DNA of 21,657 nucleotides, taken from a virus. The notes under the pieces are model-generated. The model was given only the letters and a program-made list of their open reading frames with translations, had not been told where the DNA came from and ran no database searches. The position numbers and the translations under genes were made by a program. Within the stretch, counting starts at the first letter, position 1; every line of letters begins with the position of its first letter. The stretch lies in IMG/VR virus record IMGVR_UViG_3300017917_000561, positions 1 to 21,657 of that record; one strand, 5' to 3'. Positions 892 through 9,566 of the stretch are shown piece after piece.

Positions 892-1536
892 ATGGCATAT
901 ACTCGTGGTACATCGACCAACATTATCGTTGGTGCTGCTGCACTTTTCGTAGCAGATACAACTCTTACTCCAGGTACACTGGAGGCGTTTGATAGCACAG
1001 AGTCATTCAAGGAAACGCTCTCAACAGCTCCTGCAAGCTCTGATTATACAAACGTAGGTTATACCATGAACGGTCTTGAACTACAGTTCCAACCAGACTT
1101 CGGTGAAGTACAGGTTGACCAAGTTCTTGACGTTGCTAAATTATACAAGCAGGGTATGCAGGTAAATCTTGCAACTGCTTTTGCTGAAGCTACCCTTGAG
1201 AACCTTCTCTTGGCTCTTGCCTTTAGTGAATCCAACCTTTCAGGAACAAAGTCTACATCAGCAGGACAAGCATTAAATCTTTCAGCAGGTAACATTGGAG
1301 AATGTCCAGTTGAACGTGCTATTGTCGCTGTTGGACCAGGAACTGGTGACTGCGAAGACTCAGCATATGTTGAGCGTGTTTATACAGCATACCGTGCTCT
1401 ATCAATTGAAAACGTAACTGTATCTGCAAAGCGTGATGAAGCTTCAATGTTTGAAGTTTCTTTCCGTCTTCTTCCTGAAGATACATCTGGATCATATGGT
1501 AAGATCGTAGATCGTACTTGGACTCCAGCATCATAA
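892..1536 (+). CDS. Major tail tube protein
   Basis: A protein of 214 aa starting MAYTRGTST. It has the look of a siphovirus tail tube subunit: a Gly/Ala/Ser/Thr-rich beta-sandwich, moderate length, no Cys cluster, no coiled coil, and a C-terminal strand region (FEVSFRLLPEDTSG) that resembles the last strands of tube proteins. It polymerises in rings around the tape measure to form the DNA conduit. Position agrees: after the terminator gene and before the chaperones and tape measure. Codon use is clearly different from the neighbours, with many CGT, CTT, TTC, AAC and GAC codons, as expected for one of the most abundant virion proteins. It has its own promoter (822-830) and a strong terminator (1560-1593), so it is a near-monocistronic unit. 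Confidence 0.85.
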   Translation: MAYTRGTSTNIIVGAAALFVADTTLTPGTLEAFDSTESFKETLSTAPASSDYTNVGYTMNGLELQFQPDFGEVQVDQVLDVAKLYKQGMQVNLATAFAEATLENLLLALAFSESNLSGTKSTSAGQALNLSAGNIGECPVERAIVAVGPGTGDCEDSAYVERVYTAYRALSIENVTVSAKRDEASMFEVSFRLLPEDTSGSYGKIVDRTWTPAS

Positions 1537-1559: not shown

Positions 1560-1593
1560 AACCCACTGTATTTTGCAGTGGGTTTTGTTGTTT
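1560..1593 (+). terminator. Rho-independent terminator after the tail tube gene
   Basis: Arms AACCCACTG (1560-1568) and CAGTGGGTT (1576-1584) pair perfectly over 9 bp around a 7-nt loop. They are followed by the T-rich tract TTTTGTTGTTT (1583-1593). This is the clearest intrinsic terminator in the window. It separates the abundant tail tube message from the long chaperone gene, whose own promoter begins 2 nt further on. Confidence 0.88.
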
Positions 1594-1594
1594 A

Positions 1595-1603
1595 TGGTAA
1601 AAT
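1595..1603 (+). promoter_or_regulatory. Extended -10 promoter producing a probable leaderless chaperone mRNA
   Basis: TGgTAAAAT at 1595-1603 sits directly after the terminator T-tract. Only 7 nt separate the end of the -10 box from ATG 1611, so the expected start point is at or next to the A of the AUG. No Shine-Dalgarno precedes the ATG. A partial -35 (TTGCAG, 1573-1578) with a poor 19-nt spacer lies in the terminator hairpin and is probably not used. Confidence 0.55.
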
Positions 1604-1610
1604 AGATAAA

Positions 1611-2300
1611 ATGGCTACTGAGATTTATAATAAAAATAATGTATTTTTAATTGATGGTACAGAAATAGAAATTACACCATTAAAAATTAAATACTTAAGA
1701 GAATTTATGCCAATTTTTAATAATATTAAAAATGCAAAAGACGATGATGAAACTATTAAAATATTGTTGGAATGTTTAAAAATTTGTATGAAACAATACT
1801 ATCCAAAAATATCAAATAGTATTGAAGAAGTTGAAAATAATATTGATTTACCAACACTCTATGCAGTTCTTGACGTAGCAGCAGGTATAAAAATAGATAA
1901 CAAGTCTGATAAAACAGTAACTGATCAAGCAAAAGATAATGGAAAGTCTTGGGAAGATTTAGATTTAGCAAAATTAGAATCTGAGGTTTTTATTTTAGGT
2001 ATATGGAAAGACTATCAGGAATTAGAAAAATCTTTATCTATGCCAGAATTACTAGCAACTCTTGAAAGTAAAAGAGAAAAAGACTATGAAGAAAAAAAGT
2101 TTTTAGCTGCAATTCAAGGTGTAGATATAGATGCTAATTCTAATAAAGGACAAAAAGAATGGGAAGACATGAAAGCAAGAGTATTTAGTAGGGGTGCAAC
2201 TACAGATAGTAATGATATTTTAGCTTTACAAGGACAAAATGCTAAGAAAGCTGGCTTTGGAATTGGCATGGGGCTAGACTATGAAGATCAAAGAAAATAG
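1611..2300 (+). CDS. Tail assembly chaperone, long form (G-T-like, single frame)
   Basis: A protein of 229 aa starting MATEIYNKNN. Residues 1 to about 95 are a paralogue of the next gene: 20 of the first 36 residues are identical by eye, sharing LIDGT, PLKI and LREFM. After a short linker, residues about 110-229 form a second, charged region (WEDLDLAKLE, LGIWKDYQELEKSLSMPELL, EKKFLAAIQG). This resembles the extension that in many phages of actinobacteria is reached only by a -1 frameshift. Here both halves are in one uninterrupted frame. Such chaperones coat the tape measure and recruit tube subunits during tail assembly. An in-frame GTG at 1578 lies inside the terminator arm and is rejected. 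ATG 1611 matches the paralogue's start. Codons are strongly AT-rich. Confidence 0.8.
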   Translation: MATEIYNKNNVFLIDGTEIEITPLKIKYLREFMPIFNNIKNAKDDDETIKILLECLKICMKQYYPKISNSIEEVENNIDLPTLYAVLDVAAGIKIDNKSDKTVTDQAKDNGKSWEDLDLAKLESEVFILGIWKDYQELEKSLSMPELLATLESKREKDYEEKKFLAAIQGVDIDANSNKGQKEWEDMKARVFSRGATTDSNDILALQGQNAKKAGFGIGMGLDYEDQRK

Positions 2301-2308
2301 TTGATTTA

Positions 2309-2317
2309 TGCTATAAT
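2309..2317 (+). promoter_or_regulatory. Extended -10 promoter for the short chaperone
   Basis: TGcTATAAT at 2309-2317 is a perfect extended -10 consensus, 8 nt after the stop of the long chaperone. No -35 match is seen at 17 nt spacing. The start would be near 2324, leaving a leader of about 22 nt that carries the AGGAGG site. Confidence 0.65.
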
Positions 2318-2332
2318 TAACATAGCCTAATT

Positions 2333-2338
2333 AGGAGG
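2333..2338 (+). promoter_or_regulatory. Strong Shine-Dalgarno of the short chaperone
   Basis: AGGAGG at 2333-2338, 7 nt before ATG 2346, is a full consensus site. The long chaperone has none. The difference predicts much higher synthesis of the short form. Confidence 0.75.
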
Positions 2339-2345
2339 AAAAAAT

Positions 2346-2666
2346 ATGGCAACAACCGTATATGAGGCTCAAGAGCTTACTCTCATAGATGGAACAAAAA
2401 TAAATGTTCGGCCTTTAAAAATCTCTCTTCTTCGTGAATTCATGAAGAAATTTGATAAGGTTGCGGCAGTGGCGGATGATAATGAACAATCAATGACTCT
2501 TTTGGTTGAATGTGTACAGGTTGCAATGCAACAGTATAAACCAGAACTTGCTGGAGATATTAGCAAGTTAGAAGAAGTACTTGATTTGCCTACTGTTTAT
2601 AAAATTATAGAGGCAGCATCTGGCACTACAATGGCAGCAAATACAAATATTCTTGCTGACGCATGA
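2346..2666 (+). CDS. Tail assembly chaperone, short form (G-like paralogue)
   Basis: A protein of 106 aa, MATTVYEAQE onward, colinear with the N-terminal half of the preceding gene (LIDGT, PLKI, LREFM, a conserved EC about residue 55, LDLPT-Y near residue 80). It stops at TGA 2664-2666, where the long form continues into its T-like extension. No overlapping downstream frame could extend it by frameshift; the tape measure begins 25 nt later. It has its own perfect extended -10 promoter, a consensus AGGAGG and more host-like codons (CGT, CTT, CTC, TTC) than its paralogue. This is the pattern expected for the G form, which in lambda is made in large excess over GT. Function by homology and position; the dosage role is inferred. 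Confidence 0.78.
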   Translation: MATTVYEAQELTLIDGTKINVRPLKISLLREFMKKFDKVAAVADDNEQSMTLLVECVQVAMQQYKPELAGDISKLEEVLDLPTVYKIIEAASGTTMAANTNILADA

Positions 2667-2690: not shown

Positions 2691-5600
2691 GTGGCTGACG
2701 TTAATGCTAATATTGGCGTTAATATTGATACGTCTGAGGCATTAGCACAGTTAAAAGCCTTACAACGTCAGATATCACAATTTCACTCATCTATAATCAA
2801 AGGCAGCGAAGCTGCTGCACTAGCACAACGTGATCTGCAGAAAAACTTTATCAATAGTGTTAATTCTATTGGTGCTTTTTCTGCAGAATTACGAACAATC
2901 AAAACAACAGCAGAATCATTTACAGACTCACTTGAGAAAAATAAATTCTCAATGCGAGAATATTTCCGCTATGCTGGCGGGGCAACAAAAACATTTGGAA
3001 GACTATTTAAGTCTGAATTTGATACTATAAATAAAGTAGCAGAAGAAAATGTAAAAAGGCTACAAACTCAGTATATAAAGATGGGTAGAGACTCATCTGG
3101 AGCAATGAGGGCTATTGCTGTTATACCCAATGAACTTGACATGTCAAAAATGTCAACACAGTTGCAAATAGCAGCACAAAGACAATCAATTTTTAATCAA
3201 TTAATTAAACAAGGATCTACCAATCTATTAAATTTTGGTAAAAATACACAGTGGGCTGGTCGTCAGCTTATGGTTGGTTTTACATTACCATTAGCAGCTT
3301 TAGGAAGTACAGCAGCAAGAACATTTATGGATATGGAAACTGCTGCTATAAAGTTTAGAAAGGTTTATGGAGATTTATTTACACCAGCAGGAGAAACACA
3401 AAAAGCATTAGACGAAATAACAGCTCTAGGAGAAATGTTTACTAGATATGGTATAGCCGTATCTGATACAGTAAGTTTAGCTGCAGATGCAGCAGCAGCA
3501 GGCTTCCAAGGATTAGATTTACAAAGACAAACAACACAAGCAACAAGACTTTCAGTCCTTGGACAGATAGATCAACAAAAAGCTCTTGAAACTACTATAT
3601 CTTTACAAAATGCATTTAGGATGTCCTCAGAAGATCTTGCTGGATCTATTGATTTCTTAAATGCTGTCGAAAACCAAACTGTAGTATCTCTTGATGATAT
3701 TACAACTGCTATTCCAAAAGTTGCTCCAGTTATTGAACAATTGGGTGGTAATGTAAAAGATTTAGCATTCTTTATGGCAGCAATGAAAGAAGGCGGAGTA
3801 AATGCTTCAGAAGGAGCAAATGCCTTAAAGTCAGGTCTTGCATCTTTAATTAATCCAACCGATAAGGCAAGCAAAATGCTTGCTGGTATGGGAATTAATA
3901 TAAAGAAAATTATTGAAAGTAATAAAGGAAACTTAAGAGCAACAGTAATTGAATTTGCTAAAGCATTAGATACTCTAGACCCTTTAACTCGTGCTCGTGC
4001 AATTGAACAACTTTTTGGAAAATTCCAGTTTGCAAGATTATCAACATTATTTGATAATGTAACAAGATCAACTGGGCAGGCAGCAAGAGTATTAGATTTG
4101 GCTGGATCTTCATTAGAAGATTTAGCAGCACTTTCAGAACAAGAATTAGGAATAACAGCAGATTCAGCAATGAATAAGTTTAGAAAATCTGTTGAACAAT
4201 TAAAATTAGCTCTTGTTCCAGTAGGCAAAATATTCCTTGAGACAGTAACTCCAATATTAAAATTTATAGGTAATTTATTAGAAAAATTCAACGACTTACC
4301 ATCAGGAGTTAAAAAAGCATTAACTGTATTAACTGTTGCAATAGGTGCAATAGGTCCAGTAGCTCTTATGACATTTGGTTTGCTTGCAAATGGTCTTGCA
4401 AATATTATTAAATTTGTATCAATATTAAGAAATGGATATTTAAGATTAACTGGACAATCTCAAGTACTTGGAGAACAAACACAATTTTTAACAGTTGAAC
4501 AGCAAAATGCTTTAGCTGTTGCACACTCATTAGATCAGTCTCATGCACGATTAACACAAACATTTAATGTTGAAAAAGAAGCATTAACTAAATTAACTGC
4601 TGCATATGCTAGTGCATTTGGTGCTGCACAAAGATTTGCATCTATAAATCCTGGAATGATGCGACCTCCAGGTGGTAAAAAATTAAATAAAGGTACGGTT
4701 CGTGTTAGAAAATATGCTGATGGAGTTTTAATTGTTCCAGGAACTGGTAATAGTGATACAGTTCCAGCGATGTTAACTCCTGGAGAGGCAGTTGTACCAA
4801 AAGATAGAGTTAAACAATATGCACCATTAATACAAGGAATCATCGCTGGAAATATTCCAGGTTATGCAAAAGGACGAACTGGTACTGAAGGAACAAATGT
4901 AAGACTTCCTGGAGGATTTGCTGCAGCACACTTTGGTGGAAGCAACTTTATGACTATTGATGAAGTTCTTGCAATGCTTGCAGGAAGAACAGATAAGGCA
5001 GCAGATTCTATTAGATCAATGCTTTTGGCAATTGGAGATGGAACAAAGAAAATAACTGTGTTCACAAATGAAGTAGTTGCAATGGATGCAGAATTAAATG
5101 AAGCAGTTGGAAAAACTGGTAGTGGTAAAAGAGTAGATCGTCAATATGCTCAACAACAACTAACAGCACCACCAAAAGCCTTAGTAAGAGATATTGAATT
5201 ACAAAGACAATTAGAGGCTGCTGGTATTCCTATACAAGAAATAAGAAAAATTAATCAAAGAATTACTGATGAAATAATAGTAGGATTTGGTAAATTAGGG
5301 GATGTAACTGAGGTAACTGCAGAAGATTTAGATAAATTAATTACTGATGCATATAATGCTGTTGCAAAAACAGATGCAAGAGTTGATGCAGCGTATCAAA
5401 GAATGAAAGAAATAACAACATTTACTACTCCAACAACTCTTACAAGAGCACCATTAACAAAAGAATCATATTTAAATTTTAGAAAAAATAAAAAGAAAGT
5501 TGTAAAGGGGGTAGAACAAGTAGTTCCAAGTCCATATTTCCAAGGAATGGAAAGAGTAGTTGGACAAGGTAATGTACCATTTAGTGCAGAGGGTGCATTT

Positions 5601-8600
5601 AGAATAAAGCCACAAATGGCAACTGCTTTAGGATTATCTTCAGCACAGGCAGCAGCAGTATTTAAACAATTCTCTGATGAAGTAAAAATAAAATTAGCAT
5701 CACTTCGTAATGATATCGTTGGATTTACAACAGAATTTGAAGCACAAGCAAAAATTGCAGGATTAAAAACTGGAAATGCATATAAAACTGGCATAGATCA
5801 AAGTGGATTAAAAGATCCATATTTAGAATCTCGTCAACGTCAAAGTCCACATCCACTTGCTAGTAAAGACGGTGCTGATGATGGCAATGCATATGAAACA
5901 GCAAGACAGAGTGCTATAAGAAAACGACGTATTGCTTCATCACCAGGTGGGACTGTGGGTGGTGGAGGTGTTATTATTCCACCAGTTATTCCTTCAGTAG
6001 GTGGTGGAGGATTTGGTGGCAATGGTGGTGGAAGAGGTCCAATAACAGATCCTAGAATATTAAGACAAGCATATGCACAAAATAGACTTAGAAATTTTGG
6101 AGCTAAATTCGGAGCTGGTAAATTTGCTGGAGCTGGATTTGCTGCAAGTATGGCTGTTAGTGCAGCATCAATGGCTCCAGGCAAAATTGGTCAGGCAGCA
6201 CAAACAGCAATGCCAGTGGTATTTGGATTACAAGCATTACAAATGGCATTAAAACTTCCAATACCACATATTAAAGTATTTGCTGCATTATTACTTGCTG
6301 GCGTTGGAGTCATAAAATTAGTAAATGCTGCAAGAGAAAGAGAAAGACTTGCAATAGAGGGATTAGCTGACGCAGCAACATTAACAAAAGATAAGCTTCA
6401 AACTTTAGGTGACTTTTTTGGTGTTGTCCCAACACAAACTCCTTTTGAGTCTGCACTTCCACAATTAATAACTACTCCACAAAAACGTACTCAATTAGAA
6501 TCTCTTAAACAAAATGAGGGATTCCAAAAAACATTTGGTAAAGATATAACACAGTTACAAAAAGCTACTAAAAAAGAAGCTGAATTAGTTCTTAAATCTT
6601 TAGCTATAGAACTTAAAGGAAAGGGATTTGCAACTGAACAAATTCAAACAATTATTGATGCTTTGAGAGAAGAAGCTGGTAAAACAGATGTTGTTATTGA
6701 TGTAAAGTCATTTAATTTAAAAACAAAAGATGGTCAGGCAGCTTTAAAACAAACTGCAGATGATATAACTTCTAAGTTTGCAAAAGATTTTAGTGCTGGA
6801 TTTGAAAAAAATCTTGTTTTAGAAGGTGGAGTTGGACCAGGGGGACAAGCATATTCTCAATGGGTAACTAAATTAGTTCCAACAAAAGAATTAAAGAAAC
6901 AAACAAAAGCTGCAGGTACAGAAATATCAAACCTAATTAATGGTTTATCTGGACAATTTAAAGCTGGCATTATTAATCAAGAACAATTTAATCAAGGATT
7001 TAAAAATATATCAGATACATTATCTAAACTAAATCAATCTAATCCAGAAGCAGCATTAATGCTTGTTCAAAATGTTATGAAGACTCTTCCACCAGATGTA
7101 TATAAGGTTGTAAAAGGTATTAAGGATCTTGATGGAAATATGCTTATTCTTAGAATGCAAGCTGTTGGACTAACATCTAATCTTGCAGGTGTTGCTTCAG
7201 CATTACGTTTATTAGAAGATCCATTAGGCGATGTGTCTGATAAGATTAAGGCACAGCTACTAATAGAGGCAACTATAAAGCAACTTGATGCTTTAGAAAA
7301 GAAAATACAAGACTTTTTTAAGAAAAAAGGTGGTGTAATTGGAGGTGGTGAAAAATCTCCATTCCAACTTGCCCTTGAACAACTTCAAGCGTTAGATAAA
7401 GAATTAAAATATACAAATAAAGCATATCAACAATTAACTGCTGTTGGAATGAAAGCATCAGATGCTTTTGAAATAGCAAAAAATCCAATTCTTGCTGCTG
7501 GACTTGCTACAACAAAAATGGGTACTAAAAAATGGTATGAGCTATATGATTTAATAACTAAGACAACAAAAGCGTCTAAAGAATTATCAATGCTTGAATT
7601 TTTCCAAAAGAGAACTGAAGAATTAAATATACAAAAAAATATTGCATCTATTATTCCAAAATTAAAAGAAATGGGTATTGCTGTTGAAGATATTCAGGCA
7701 ATTATAGATGATCCAAACTTGGCACAAAGATTTTTTGAAGATCTTAAAGATGGCAAACTAGATAGTGCAGCATTAAAGAAATATATAGCAGAAATTCCAG
7801 ACTTTAAAAAAATTAAAGTATTTTTTGATTTAAAAACAGATGAAGAAATATGGAAAGATTTATATGATAAAGCAATGGAGTATTTTGATAGAGTTGAAGA
7901 AAGAATTCGTAGACAACGTCAATCTGAGATAGATGCAGCTCAGGCTGCAGTAGATGCAGCACAACAATCTGTAGATAAAATTCAAGCAGAGATTGACTCA
8001 ATACAGGCAACTGTTGATGATAAACGACGTGATGTTGAAATTAAATTTACAAGACCAATTGAAGATTTACAGAAAAAAATAGATCTTTTACAAAGAAAAA
8101 TTGAGACAGATTTCAATAGACCAATTGAAGAATTAAATAAGAGTATCGCAAGTAAGCAGAGAGATATTGAATTAAAGTTTGATAGACCTATTAGTGCTTT
8201 ACAGGCAGAGTCTGAAAGATTATCTAATGATTTAGCAATATTAGATAAGGCAGCAGAACAAATTAATAATAAATACGATTTACAAGCACAGGCATTAGAA
8301 AAAATATCTGAGGTTAATCAAGATATTATTAATCAACAAAAAACACAAGTAGATCTTGCTGGAGCATTAACTCAAGGAGATATTGCTGCTGCTGCACAAG
8401 CAGCACAAGATATGAGATCTCAAGCAGCAGAAGCTGCAGCAAGAGGTGCTGGAAAAACTCTTGAAGCAGCAAGACAGTCTGAACTAGATAGATTAAAATC
8501 AGCATCTGGAATGACAAGAGATCAAATTGAAGCACGTCAATTTGCAATTAGTCAATCTATATATAATTTAGAGCAACAAAGAGCTGTAAAACAAGCAGAA

Positions 8601-9566
8601 ATTCTTGCAATTCAAGATCAAATTTATACTATTGAACAAGCTCGTCAAATTGAATTAGATAAAGTTAGAACTTTAGAAGATAATATTTATGTATTAACAA
8701 CACAACGTGAAGATGCAGAAAGATCAATTCGTGATCTTGAAGATGATATTTATAAGCTTAAAGTTGGAAATAATTCTCAAGATACAATAGGTCTTGATTA
8801 TGCAACTAAAAAACTTAAAGCAGAACAAGATCGTCTAAAAGCAATAGAAGATCAAATTAAAAAAGATATTGAAAAAGCAACAGCAGATAAACAATATTGG
8901 ATTGATGCAAATACTGCAAGAGAAGATGCTATTACCGATGGAAATAATTACAATAAAGTTCTTGAATATACTTCTAAATTAGCAGAAGGCGTATTAAAAA
9001 CATGGCAAGATATTGTTAAAGCTCAACAGGCTGCACAAACTGCAGAAATAAAACAAATTGTTACAGATAAACCAAAACTAGGATCTGATGAAACATCAAA
9101 AATTCCACACGGTGCTTTATTAATACCAGAAATGTATGGCGGAAAAGTTAAACCAATGGCATATGGAGGAAGGGTTGGATCAGACTATGTTCCATCGTTA
9201 TTAACACCTGGAGAATTTGTAGTTAATAGAAATGCAGCAAAAGCATTTGGTCCATTACTATCTAAAATAAATGGATCAAAATATCCAGGCATGTTAAATA
9301 GTAATCTATCGCCACAACTTTATACACCAATATTACAACAATCATTTAATACTCCATCATATGGAATATCTAATCCTACCAATACATATATTCCAGTAAA
9401 AAATACAATTACACCTATTAATAATAATTCTAACGCAGTGTATAATTATAATGTAGATATATCGGTTGGTGGAACAAATGCTACTGCAGATAGTATTGCT
9501 AATGCAGTATTAAATGAAATAAGATATATAGATTCACAAAGAATTAGGGGACAAAAAGTATCGTGA
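2691..9566 (+). CDS. Tail tape measure protein
   Basis: A protein of 2291 aa, by far the longest gene. The start is GTG 2691 behind an AGAGGTG site. An N-terminal helical region is followed by the tape measure core at about residues 180-480 (FGKNTQWAGRQLMVGF, then TAARTFMDMETAAIKF). Hydrophobic segments lie at about 541-580 and 1160-1212 and could insert in the host membrane during DNA entry. A Gly-rich linker spans about 1085-1117. A long coiled coil covers about 1730-2040, with three 22-residue F-x-R-P-I repeats (F1786, F1808, F1830) and four I-Y pairs every 21 residues (1957, 1978, 1999, 2020). The SD-x-VP-x2-LTPGE motif occurs twice, at about 691 and 2167. Tape measures set tail length and travel down the tail with the DNA. 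No lysozyme or peptidase motif was recognised. Confidence 0.95.
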   Translation: MADVNANIGVNIDTSEALAQLKALQRQISQFHSSIIKGSEAAALAQRDLQKNFINSVNSIGAFSAELRTIKTTAESFTDSLEKNKFSMREYFRYAGGATKTFGRLFKSEFDTINKVAEENVKRLQTQYIKMGRDSSGAMRAIAVIPNELDMSKMSTQLQIAAQRQSIFNQLIKQGSTNLLNFGKNTQWAGRQLMVGFTLPLAALGSTAARTFMDMETAAIKFRKVYGDLFTPAGETQKALDEITALGEMFTRYGIAVSDTVSLAADAAAAGFQGLDLQRQTTQATRLSVLGQIDQQKALETTISLQNAFRMSSEDLAGSIDFLNAVENQTVVSLDDITTAIPKVAPVIEQLGGNVKDLAFFMAAMKEGGVNASEGANALKSGLASLINPTDKASKMLAGMGINIKKIIESNKGNLRATVIEFAKALDTLDPLTRARAIEQLFGKFQFARLSTLFDNVTRSTGQAARVLDLAGSSLEDLAALSEQELGITADSAMNKFRKSVEQLKLALVPVGKIFLETVTPILKFIGNLLEKFNDLPSGVKKALTVLTVAIGAIGPVALMTFGLLANGLANIIKFVSILRNGYLRLTGQSQVLGEQTQFLTVEQQNALAVAHSLDQSHARLTQTFNVEKEALTKLTAAYASAFGAAQRFASINPGMMRPPGGKKLNKGTVRVRKYADGVLIVPGTGNSDTVPAMLTPGEAVVPKDRVKQYAPLIQGIIAGNIPGYAKGRTGTEGTNVRLPGGFAAAHFGGSNFMTIDEVLAMLAGRTDKAADSIRSMLLAIGDGTKKITVFTNEVVAMDAELNEAVGKTGSGKRVDRQYAQQQLTAPPKALVRDIELQRQLEAAGIPIQEIRKINQRITDEIIVGFGKLGDVTEVTAEDLDKLITDAYNAVAKTDARVDAAYQRMKEITTFTTPTTLTRAPLTKESYLNFRKNKKKVVKGVEQVVPSPYFQGMERVVGQGNVPFSAEGAFRIKPQMATALGLSSAQAAAVFKQFSDEVKIKLASLRNDIVGFTTEFEAQAKIAGLKTGNAYKTGIDQSGLKDPYLESRQRQSPHPLASKDGADDGNAYETARQSAIRKRRIASSPGGTVGGGGVIIPPVIPSVGGGGFGGNGGGRGPITDPRILRQAYAQNRLRNFGAKFGAGKFAGAGFAASMAVSAASMAPGKIGQAAQTAMPVVFGLQALQMALKLPIPHIKVFAALLLAGVGVIKLVNAARERERLAIEGLADAATLTKDKLQTLGDFFGVVPTQTPFESALPQLITTPQKRTQLESLKQNEGFQKTFGKDITQLQKATKKEAELVLKSLAIELKGKGFATEQIQTIIDALREEAGKTDVVIDVKSFNLKTKDGQAALKQTADDITSKFAKDFSAGFEKNLVLEGGVGPGGQAYSQWVTKLVPTKELKKQTKAAGTEISNLINGLSGQFKAGIINQEQFNQGFKNISDTLSKLNQSNPEAALMLVQNVMKTLPPDVYKVVKGIKDLDGNMLILRMQAVGLTSNLAGVASALRLLEDPLGDVSDKIKAQLLIEATIKQLDALEKKIQDFFKKKGGVIGGGEKSPFQLALEQLQALDKELKYTNKAYQQLTAVGMKASDAFEIAKNPILAAGLATTKMGTKKWYELYDLITKTTKASKELSMLEFFQKRTEELNIQKNIASIIPKLKEMGIAVEDIQAIIDDPNLAQRFFEDLKDGKLDSAALKKYIAEIPDFKKIKVFFDLKTDEEIWKDLYDKAMEYFDRVEERIRRQRQSEIDAAQAAVDAAQQSVDKIQAEIDSIQATVDDKRRDVEIKFTRPIEDLQKKIDLLQRKIETDFNRPIEELNKSIASKQRDIELKFDRPISALQAESERLSNDLAILDKAAEQINNKYDLQAQALEKISEVNQDIINQQKTQVDLAGALTQGDIAAAAQAAQDMRSQAAEAAARGAGKTLEAARQSELDRLKSASGMTRDQIEARQFAISQSIYNLEQQRAVKQAEILAIQDQIYTIEQARQIELDKVRTLEDNIYVLTTQREDAERSIRDLEDDIYKLKVGNNSQDTIGLDYATKKLKAEQDRLKAIEDQIKKDIEKATADKQYWIDANTAREDAITDGNNYNKVLEYTSKLAEGVLKTWQDIVKAQQAAQTAEIKQIVTDKPKLGSDETSKIPHGALLIPEMYGGKVKPMAYGGRVGSDYVPSLLTPGEFVVNRNAAKAFGPLLSKINGSKYPGMLNSNLSPQLYTPILQQSFNTPSYGISNPTNTYIPVKNTITPINNNSNAVYNYNVDISVGGTNATADSIANAVLNEIRYIDSQRIRGQKVS
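8046..8180 (+). repeat. Three 22-residue F-x-R-P-I repeats in the tape measure coiled coil
   Basis: F-T-R-P-I, F-N-R-P-I and F-D-R-P-I begin at bases 8046, 8112 and 8178, exactly 66 bases apart (residues 1786, 1808, 1830). Flanking residues also recur (acidic plus Leu after the Ile). The DNA has drifted while the protein pattern is kept. Confidence 0.8.
8559..8753 (+). repeat. 21-residue I-Y repeats in the tape measure coiled coil
   Basis: Ile-Tyr pairs start at bases 8559, 8622, 8685 and 8748, exactly 63 bases apart. They are separated by Glu/Gln/Lys-rich heptad sequence. Twenty-one residues equal three heptads, so the Ile-Tyr pairs fall on the same face of a continuous coiled coil. Confidence 0.8.

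Follow-up and report, generated by a model that had tools for sequence, protein, structure and literature searches.

It is probable that a whole clade of phages has abolished the frameshift of the tail assembly chaperone genes, which ranks among the most conserved programmed frameshifts, and has rebuilt the G:GT ratio by gene duplication, with a leaderless GT fusion and a Shine-Dalgarno-led G gene, so that stoichiometry has been moved from elongation to initiation and transcription. A -1 ribosomal slip that yields the short and long tail chaperones is used by nearly all long-tailed phages. For lambda, a G:GT ratio of approximately 30:1 has been described, with both proteins bound to the tape measure protein and the tail tube protein recruited by T (PMC5009743). 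Our search of the open-access literature, outside which subscription papers lie, found no published description of a two-gene G/GT layout.

Two tail assembly chaperone genes in one locus

The window, i.e. the whole analyzed stretch of 21,657 nt (IMG/VR record IMGVR_UViG_3300017917_000561), carries two chaperone genes between the genes for the major tail protein and the tape measure protein, with the following features:

892..1536, + strand: major tail protein gene, the upstream neighbour (ATG at 892, Shine-Dalgarno AGGTG at 881-885)
1560..1584, + strand: intrinsic terminator 3' of the major tail protein gene (11 pairs, T-rich tail)
1595..1603, + strand: extended -10 promoter TGgTAAAAT of the long gene, 7 nt before ATG 1611; leaderless transcript predicted
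1611..2300, + strand: long tail assembly chaperone, an in-frame GT fusion (phrog_10504 plus phrog_10474, alignments)
2309..2317, + strand: extended -10 promoter TGcTATAAT of the short gene (from sequence)
2333..2338, + strand: Shine-Dalgarno AGGAGG of the short gene (from sequence)
2346..2666, + strand: short tail assembly chaperone, a G-only paralogue (phrog_10504 match, 42% identity to the long G domain)
2691..9566, + strand: tape measure protein gene, 2291 aa (phrog_10030, tail length tape measure protein, E 1.3e-100)

The gene at 892-1536 matches phrog_2175 (E 5.5e-35) and phrog_885, major tail protein (0.0017), and occupies the position of the annotated major tail protein in Streptomyces phages. 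It apparently has its own extended -10 box (TGaTATACT, 821-829) with a leader of approximately 60 nt, and three successive tail genes may therefore each have a promoter. The terminator that follows it has a fold of -16.9 kcal/mol (z -5.2), and a hairpin with a T-run is visible at this position in most relatives. The helicase of the window phage is 38% identical to that of Streptomyces phages, of which the phage is a distant relative, and judging from its relatives it is likely to have an actinobacterial host; scans of genome contigs found no relatives and gave no prophage or host link.

The original prediction described 1611-2300 as a single uninterrupted frame followed by a separate short paralogue, and both frames are indeed intact (229 aa from ATG 1611 and 106 aa, respectively). 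A count by eye again gives 20 identical residues among the first 36, and the alignment shows 42% identity across 93 aa (E 3e-28). Both proteins match phrog_10504 (the long one over its first ~100 residues, 2e-21; the short one 2e-19), and the long protein alone matches phrog_10474 (residues 131-204), so that it consists of a G domain (residues ~1-95), a linker, and a T domain that starts at Trp114. That these are two separate protein families is what one would expect if G and T lie in separate frames in other phages. Annotated Streptomyces phage chaperones are matched over both domains (tblastn, E about 1e-31). The predicted models of both proteins begin with a beta hairpin followed by helices. 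Against predicted viral structures the short protein (model pLDDT 65, moderate confidence) matches the fold of a tail assembly chaperone at 1.8e-6, and the long one (pLDDT 75) has weak matches to predicted structures of N15 GT (0.019) and of an Enterococcus phage frameshift chaperone. The fold search of the PDB gave no significant match to any solved structure, and nothing useful came from sequence searches of Pfam and the PDB. By profile, gene order and, moderately, predicted fold, both proteins resemble tail assembly chaperones, the short one included, as originally supposed.

The window therefore resembles the lambda-type G/GT cassette: its chaperone genes stand between those for the major tail and tape measure proteins, they are homologous to chaperone genes annotated in other phages, and their two products have a common N-terminal G domain, to which the longer one adds T; an excess of the short form is predicted here as well. 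It differs in having neither a slippery site nor a frame change: in place of a T frame that overlaps G in -1 with a slippery heptamer, there is a single GT frame, and each product has a paralogous gene to itself, with its own promoter and its own mode of start.

Distribution of the two layouts and loss of the slippery site

We surveyed 327 related loci, from IMG/VR contigs and from Streptomyces and Rhodococcus phages, for the two-gene layout, as the original prediction had proposed. GT is followed by G in 222 of the 327, and G is followed by T in the -1 frame in 94; in two Rhodococcus loci only T was matched, and the remaining loci are cut by contig ends. As some contigs were present as more than one locus, near-copies were removed, which left 128 fused and 55 frameshift representatives. 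The GT-G layout is clade-wide in a widespread group of environmental phages whose hosts are probably Actinobacteria.

An in-frame X_XXY_YYZ slippery heptamer of the type C_CCA_AAY or G_GGA_AAY is present in the G/T overlap of 51 of the 55 frameshift representatives (CCCAAAC 23, GGGAAAC 20, CCCAAAT 7, GGGAAAT 1). CCCAAAY and GGGAAAY differ by lineage and occupy approximately the same place at the G end, as if exchanged in evolution. The slip of these relatives thus sits between G and T, whereas the matching linker of the fused genes has a heptamer of any X_XXY_YYZ type, mostly A-rich, in only 12/128. The four frameshift representatives without a heptamer are all Streptomyces phages. At loci L163, L164, L166 and L171 (G end, about 3288-3342) T lies in the -1 frame and the overlap has no X_XXY_YYZ heptamer; in the annotations of three of them, Coruscant, Evy and Daubenski (L163, L164, L171), G and T stand as separate genes that are not joined. 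In the Stanwilliamsviridae Streptomyces phages G and T occupy separate frames; the annotation of Patelgo joins them as a frameshift product, as does that of the Rhodococcus phage NiceHouse. Members of this family (Coruscant, Evy, Karp, Patelgo) share gene order and homologous G and T domains (about 35-41% identity) with the window, but have T in the -1 frame, a single copy of G, and a Shine-Dalgarno start.

One could argue that a cryptic frameshift or an internal stop still lets the long gene yield a short product, and that the second gene is a spare copy. X_XXY_YYZ heptamers do occur at two positions of the long gene of the window, 1775 (TTTAAAA) and 2093 (AAAAAAG). We rejected both as frameshift sites: they lie outside the G-T linker, and a -1 shift would add just 12 residues before a stop. 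AAAAAA-type heptamers occur at the position of 2093 in 41 of 128 relatives, as Lys-Lys codons would lead one to expect. The short gene, moreover, is always present and under strong purifying selection, which speaks against a spare copy, and we regard this explanation as very improbable.

Among the 327, every complete locus with a fused GT also has a second G, and apart from cut contigs no intermediate layout was found (fused GT without G, duplicated cassettes, or G with a relict T). In phage TP901-1 a mutant was made in which gpG and gpT are permanently fused and no free gpG is present; its particles have a normal appearance but lack infectivity (PMC4493119). The long gene shares the permanent in-frame GT fusion with this laboratory mutant, which has no separate G gene, but the natural phages with the split layout always carry one. 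The absence of a fused GT without a second G fits the non-infectivity of the TP901-1 mutant, and the natural phages appear to solve the problem of the fusion by keeping a separate gene for G.

Start signals, codon usage and selection

The two genes differ in their start signals. In the window the -10 box of the long gene ends 7 nt upstream of the ATG and the Shine-Dalgarno sequence is absent. A TGnTAnnnT box ending 5-9 nt before the ATG of the long gene was found in 120 of 126 non-redundant relatives (shuffled control: mean 2.1, maximum 8), and a Shine-Dalgarno sequence in none of the 126. The short gene has TGnTAnnnT 20-45 nt before its start in 127/128 and a Shine-Dalgarno sequence in 128/128, and in the window its predicted TGcTATAAT and AGGAGG are both in place. 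The G genes of the frameshift phages look like the short gene (-10 box in 55/55, Shine-Dalgarno in 54/55). These patterns suggest that the short gene retains the ancestral start and that the start of the long gene is derived and probably leaderless.

TANNNT approximately 12 bp before the start codon is the mark of leaderless genes in bacteria, and genes of this kind are frequent in Actinobacteria (PMC3160421). The long gene shares with these TA-led genes both the box, at about 10-13 nt before the start codon, and the lack of a Shine-Dalgarno sequence; here, however, the feature is confined to one of two paralogues and is apparently part of a dosage arrangement. The absence of a Shine-Dalgarno, noted in the original prediction, stands, but with a -10 box only 7 nt from the ATG the gene most probably has a leaderless transcript and not simply weak expression. 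Leaderless mRNAs are common in Actinobacteria and can be well translated, so that the missing Shine-Dalgarno is by itself no proof of low output.

Codon usage separates the two genes as well. The contrast between host-like codons in the short gene and AT-rich codons in the long one, which had been noted from the window, is borne out by GC3 values of 0.245 for the short gene and 0.116 for the G half of the long gene (major tail protein 0.262, tape measure 0.13). For synonymous codon choice the score was the log-odds of usage in the major tail protein against usage in the tape measure, and each locus was excluded from the reference when it was itself scored. In 109/109 loci this score is higher for the short gene than for the G half of the long gene, and the mean values are 0.011 for the short gene, 0.005 for the frameshift G, -0.34 for the long G half, and -0.24 for T. 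In the frameshift phages G scores higher than T in 34 of 39, and the contrast between the short and long genes matches this contrast between G and T. Between relatives, the short gene has a median dS of 0.37, against 1.18 in the long G half and 1.19 in T. The low dS of the short gene could be due in part to recombination; we read the codon and dS contrasts as probable signs of expression level.

Differences relative to the window concentrate at third codon positions, and dN/dS is about 0.1 in both genes, i.e. both are under purifying selection, which argues that both are translated and constrained. This bears on the idea that the long gene is an unexpressed or decaying copy, as its AT-rich codons and the missing Shine-Dalgarno might suggest. 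Its frame is open and under coding selection over 128 non-redundant loci, its promoter is conserved at a fixed distance, and it holds the only T domain of the locus, so that we give this idea hardly any credence. Of the three outcomes that the original prediction had named as refuting it (a frameshift within 1611-2300 in relatives, an untranslated 1611-2300, and a second protein that is no chaperone), none holds.

Origin and predicted working of the split cassette

The long copies are united in a single branch of the G-domain tree (94/90). Another branch (100/99) unites the short copies and is nested among the frameshift G proteins; the Streptomyces outgroup is also of the frameshift type. This topology indicates that the split layout is derived, most simply with a single origin, from one duplication within the frameshift phages. 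As the layout arose once, its many loci are not independent tests. The tape measure tree also groups the split-layout phages, with one exception, L140. In L140 (1-4362) and in L252-L255 a frameshift cassette adjoins a tape measure gene of the split-clade type, and in L252-L254 the upstream genes, including the one for the major tail protein, and the G and T genes are of the frameshift type. We interpret these five as recombinant phages with a breakpoint between T and the tape measure gene. The frameshift and split cassettes appear to do the same job and to be interchangeable, since a frameshift cassette can stand next to a tape measure gene of the split clade.

The same recombinants have to be considered with regard to a less likely, but still credible, alternative, namely that the paralogues now have different functions, with the long protein as a dedicated initiator at one end of the tape measure and the short one coating the rest. 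The split would then mainly have allowed specialization of the G domains rather than a change of the ratio. The long G domains evolve faster (dN 0.125 vs 0.035 in the short gene) and have long branches in the tree, and the two paralogues of the window are only 42% identical. On the other hand, dN/dS is low and similar in both genes, the codon and initiation contrasts directly predict a difference in dosage, and a frameshift cassette, which uses one G domain for both forms, adjoins the tape measure gene of the clade. Such divergence is compatible with a ratio set by dosage rather than exclusive of it.

We consider it likely that in the split cassette duplication and separate transcription and initiation replace the ratio set by frameshifting, in the following manner. 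An ancestral cassette of the usual type (G, slippery site, T in the -1 frame) was duplicated. In the upstream copy G and T became permanently fused in one frame, the slippery site disappeared, and a promoter was gained so near the ATG that the mRNA should be leaderless; the downstream copy lost T and, with the ancestral promoter, leader and Shine-Dalgarno retained, encodes G alone. Fused GT would then be made at a low level from the leaderless transcript, and G in excess from its own strong, Shine-Dalgarno-led promoter, augmented by read-through from the promoter of the long gene, which we propose because no terminator was found between the long and short genes. Judging from the sequences compared, the short form is most likely in excess, with separate transcription and initiation setting the ratio. 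The tape measure protein is the expected client of both chaperones: as in lambda, G and GT would bind and together coat it, and the T domain would recruit the major tail protein. Transcription and translation initiation would take the usual place of slippage in setting the stoichiometry.

In the widely conserved G/GT frameshift, slippage itself may matter or only the ratio that it sets. Phages with the split layout are a natural experiment in this respect, as they have the same proteins, the same gene order and a related tape measure protein, with the ratio apparently set otherwise. They also warn that two chaperone genes need not imply an unannotated frameshift, and they point to a possible route for the loss of recoding, through duplication, fusion and separate initiation.
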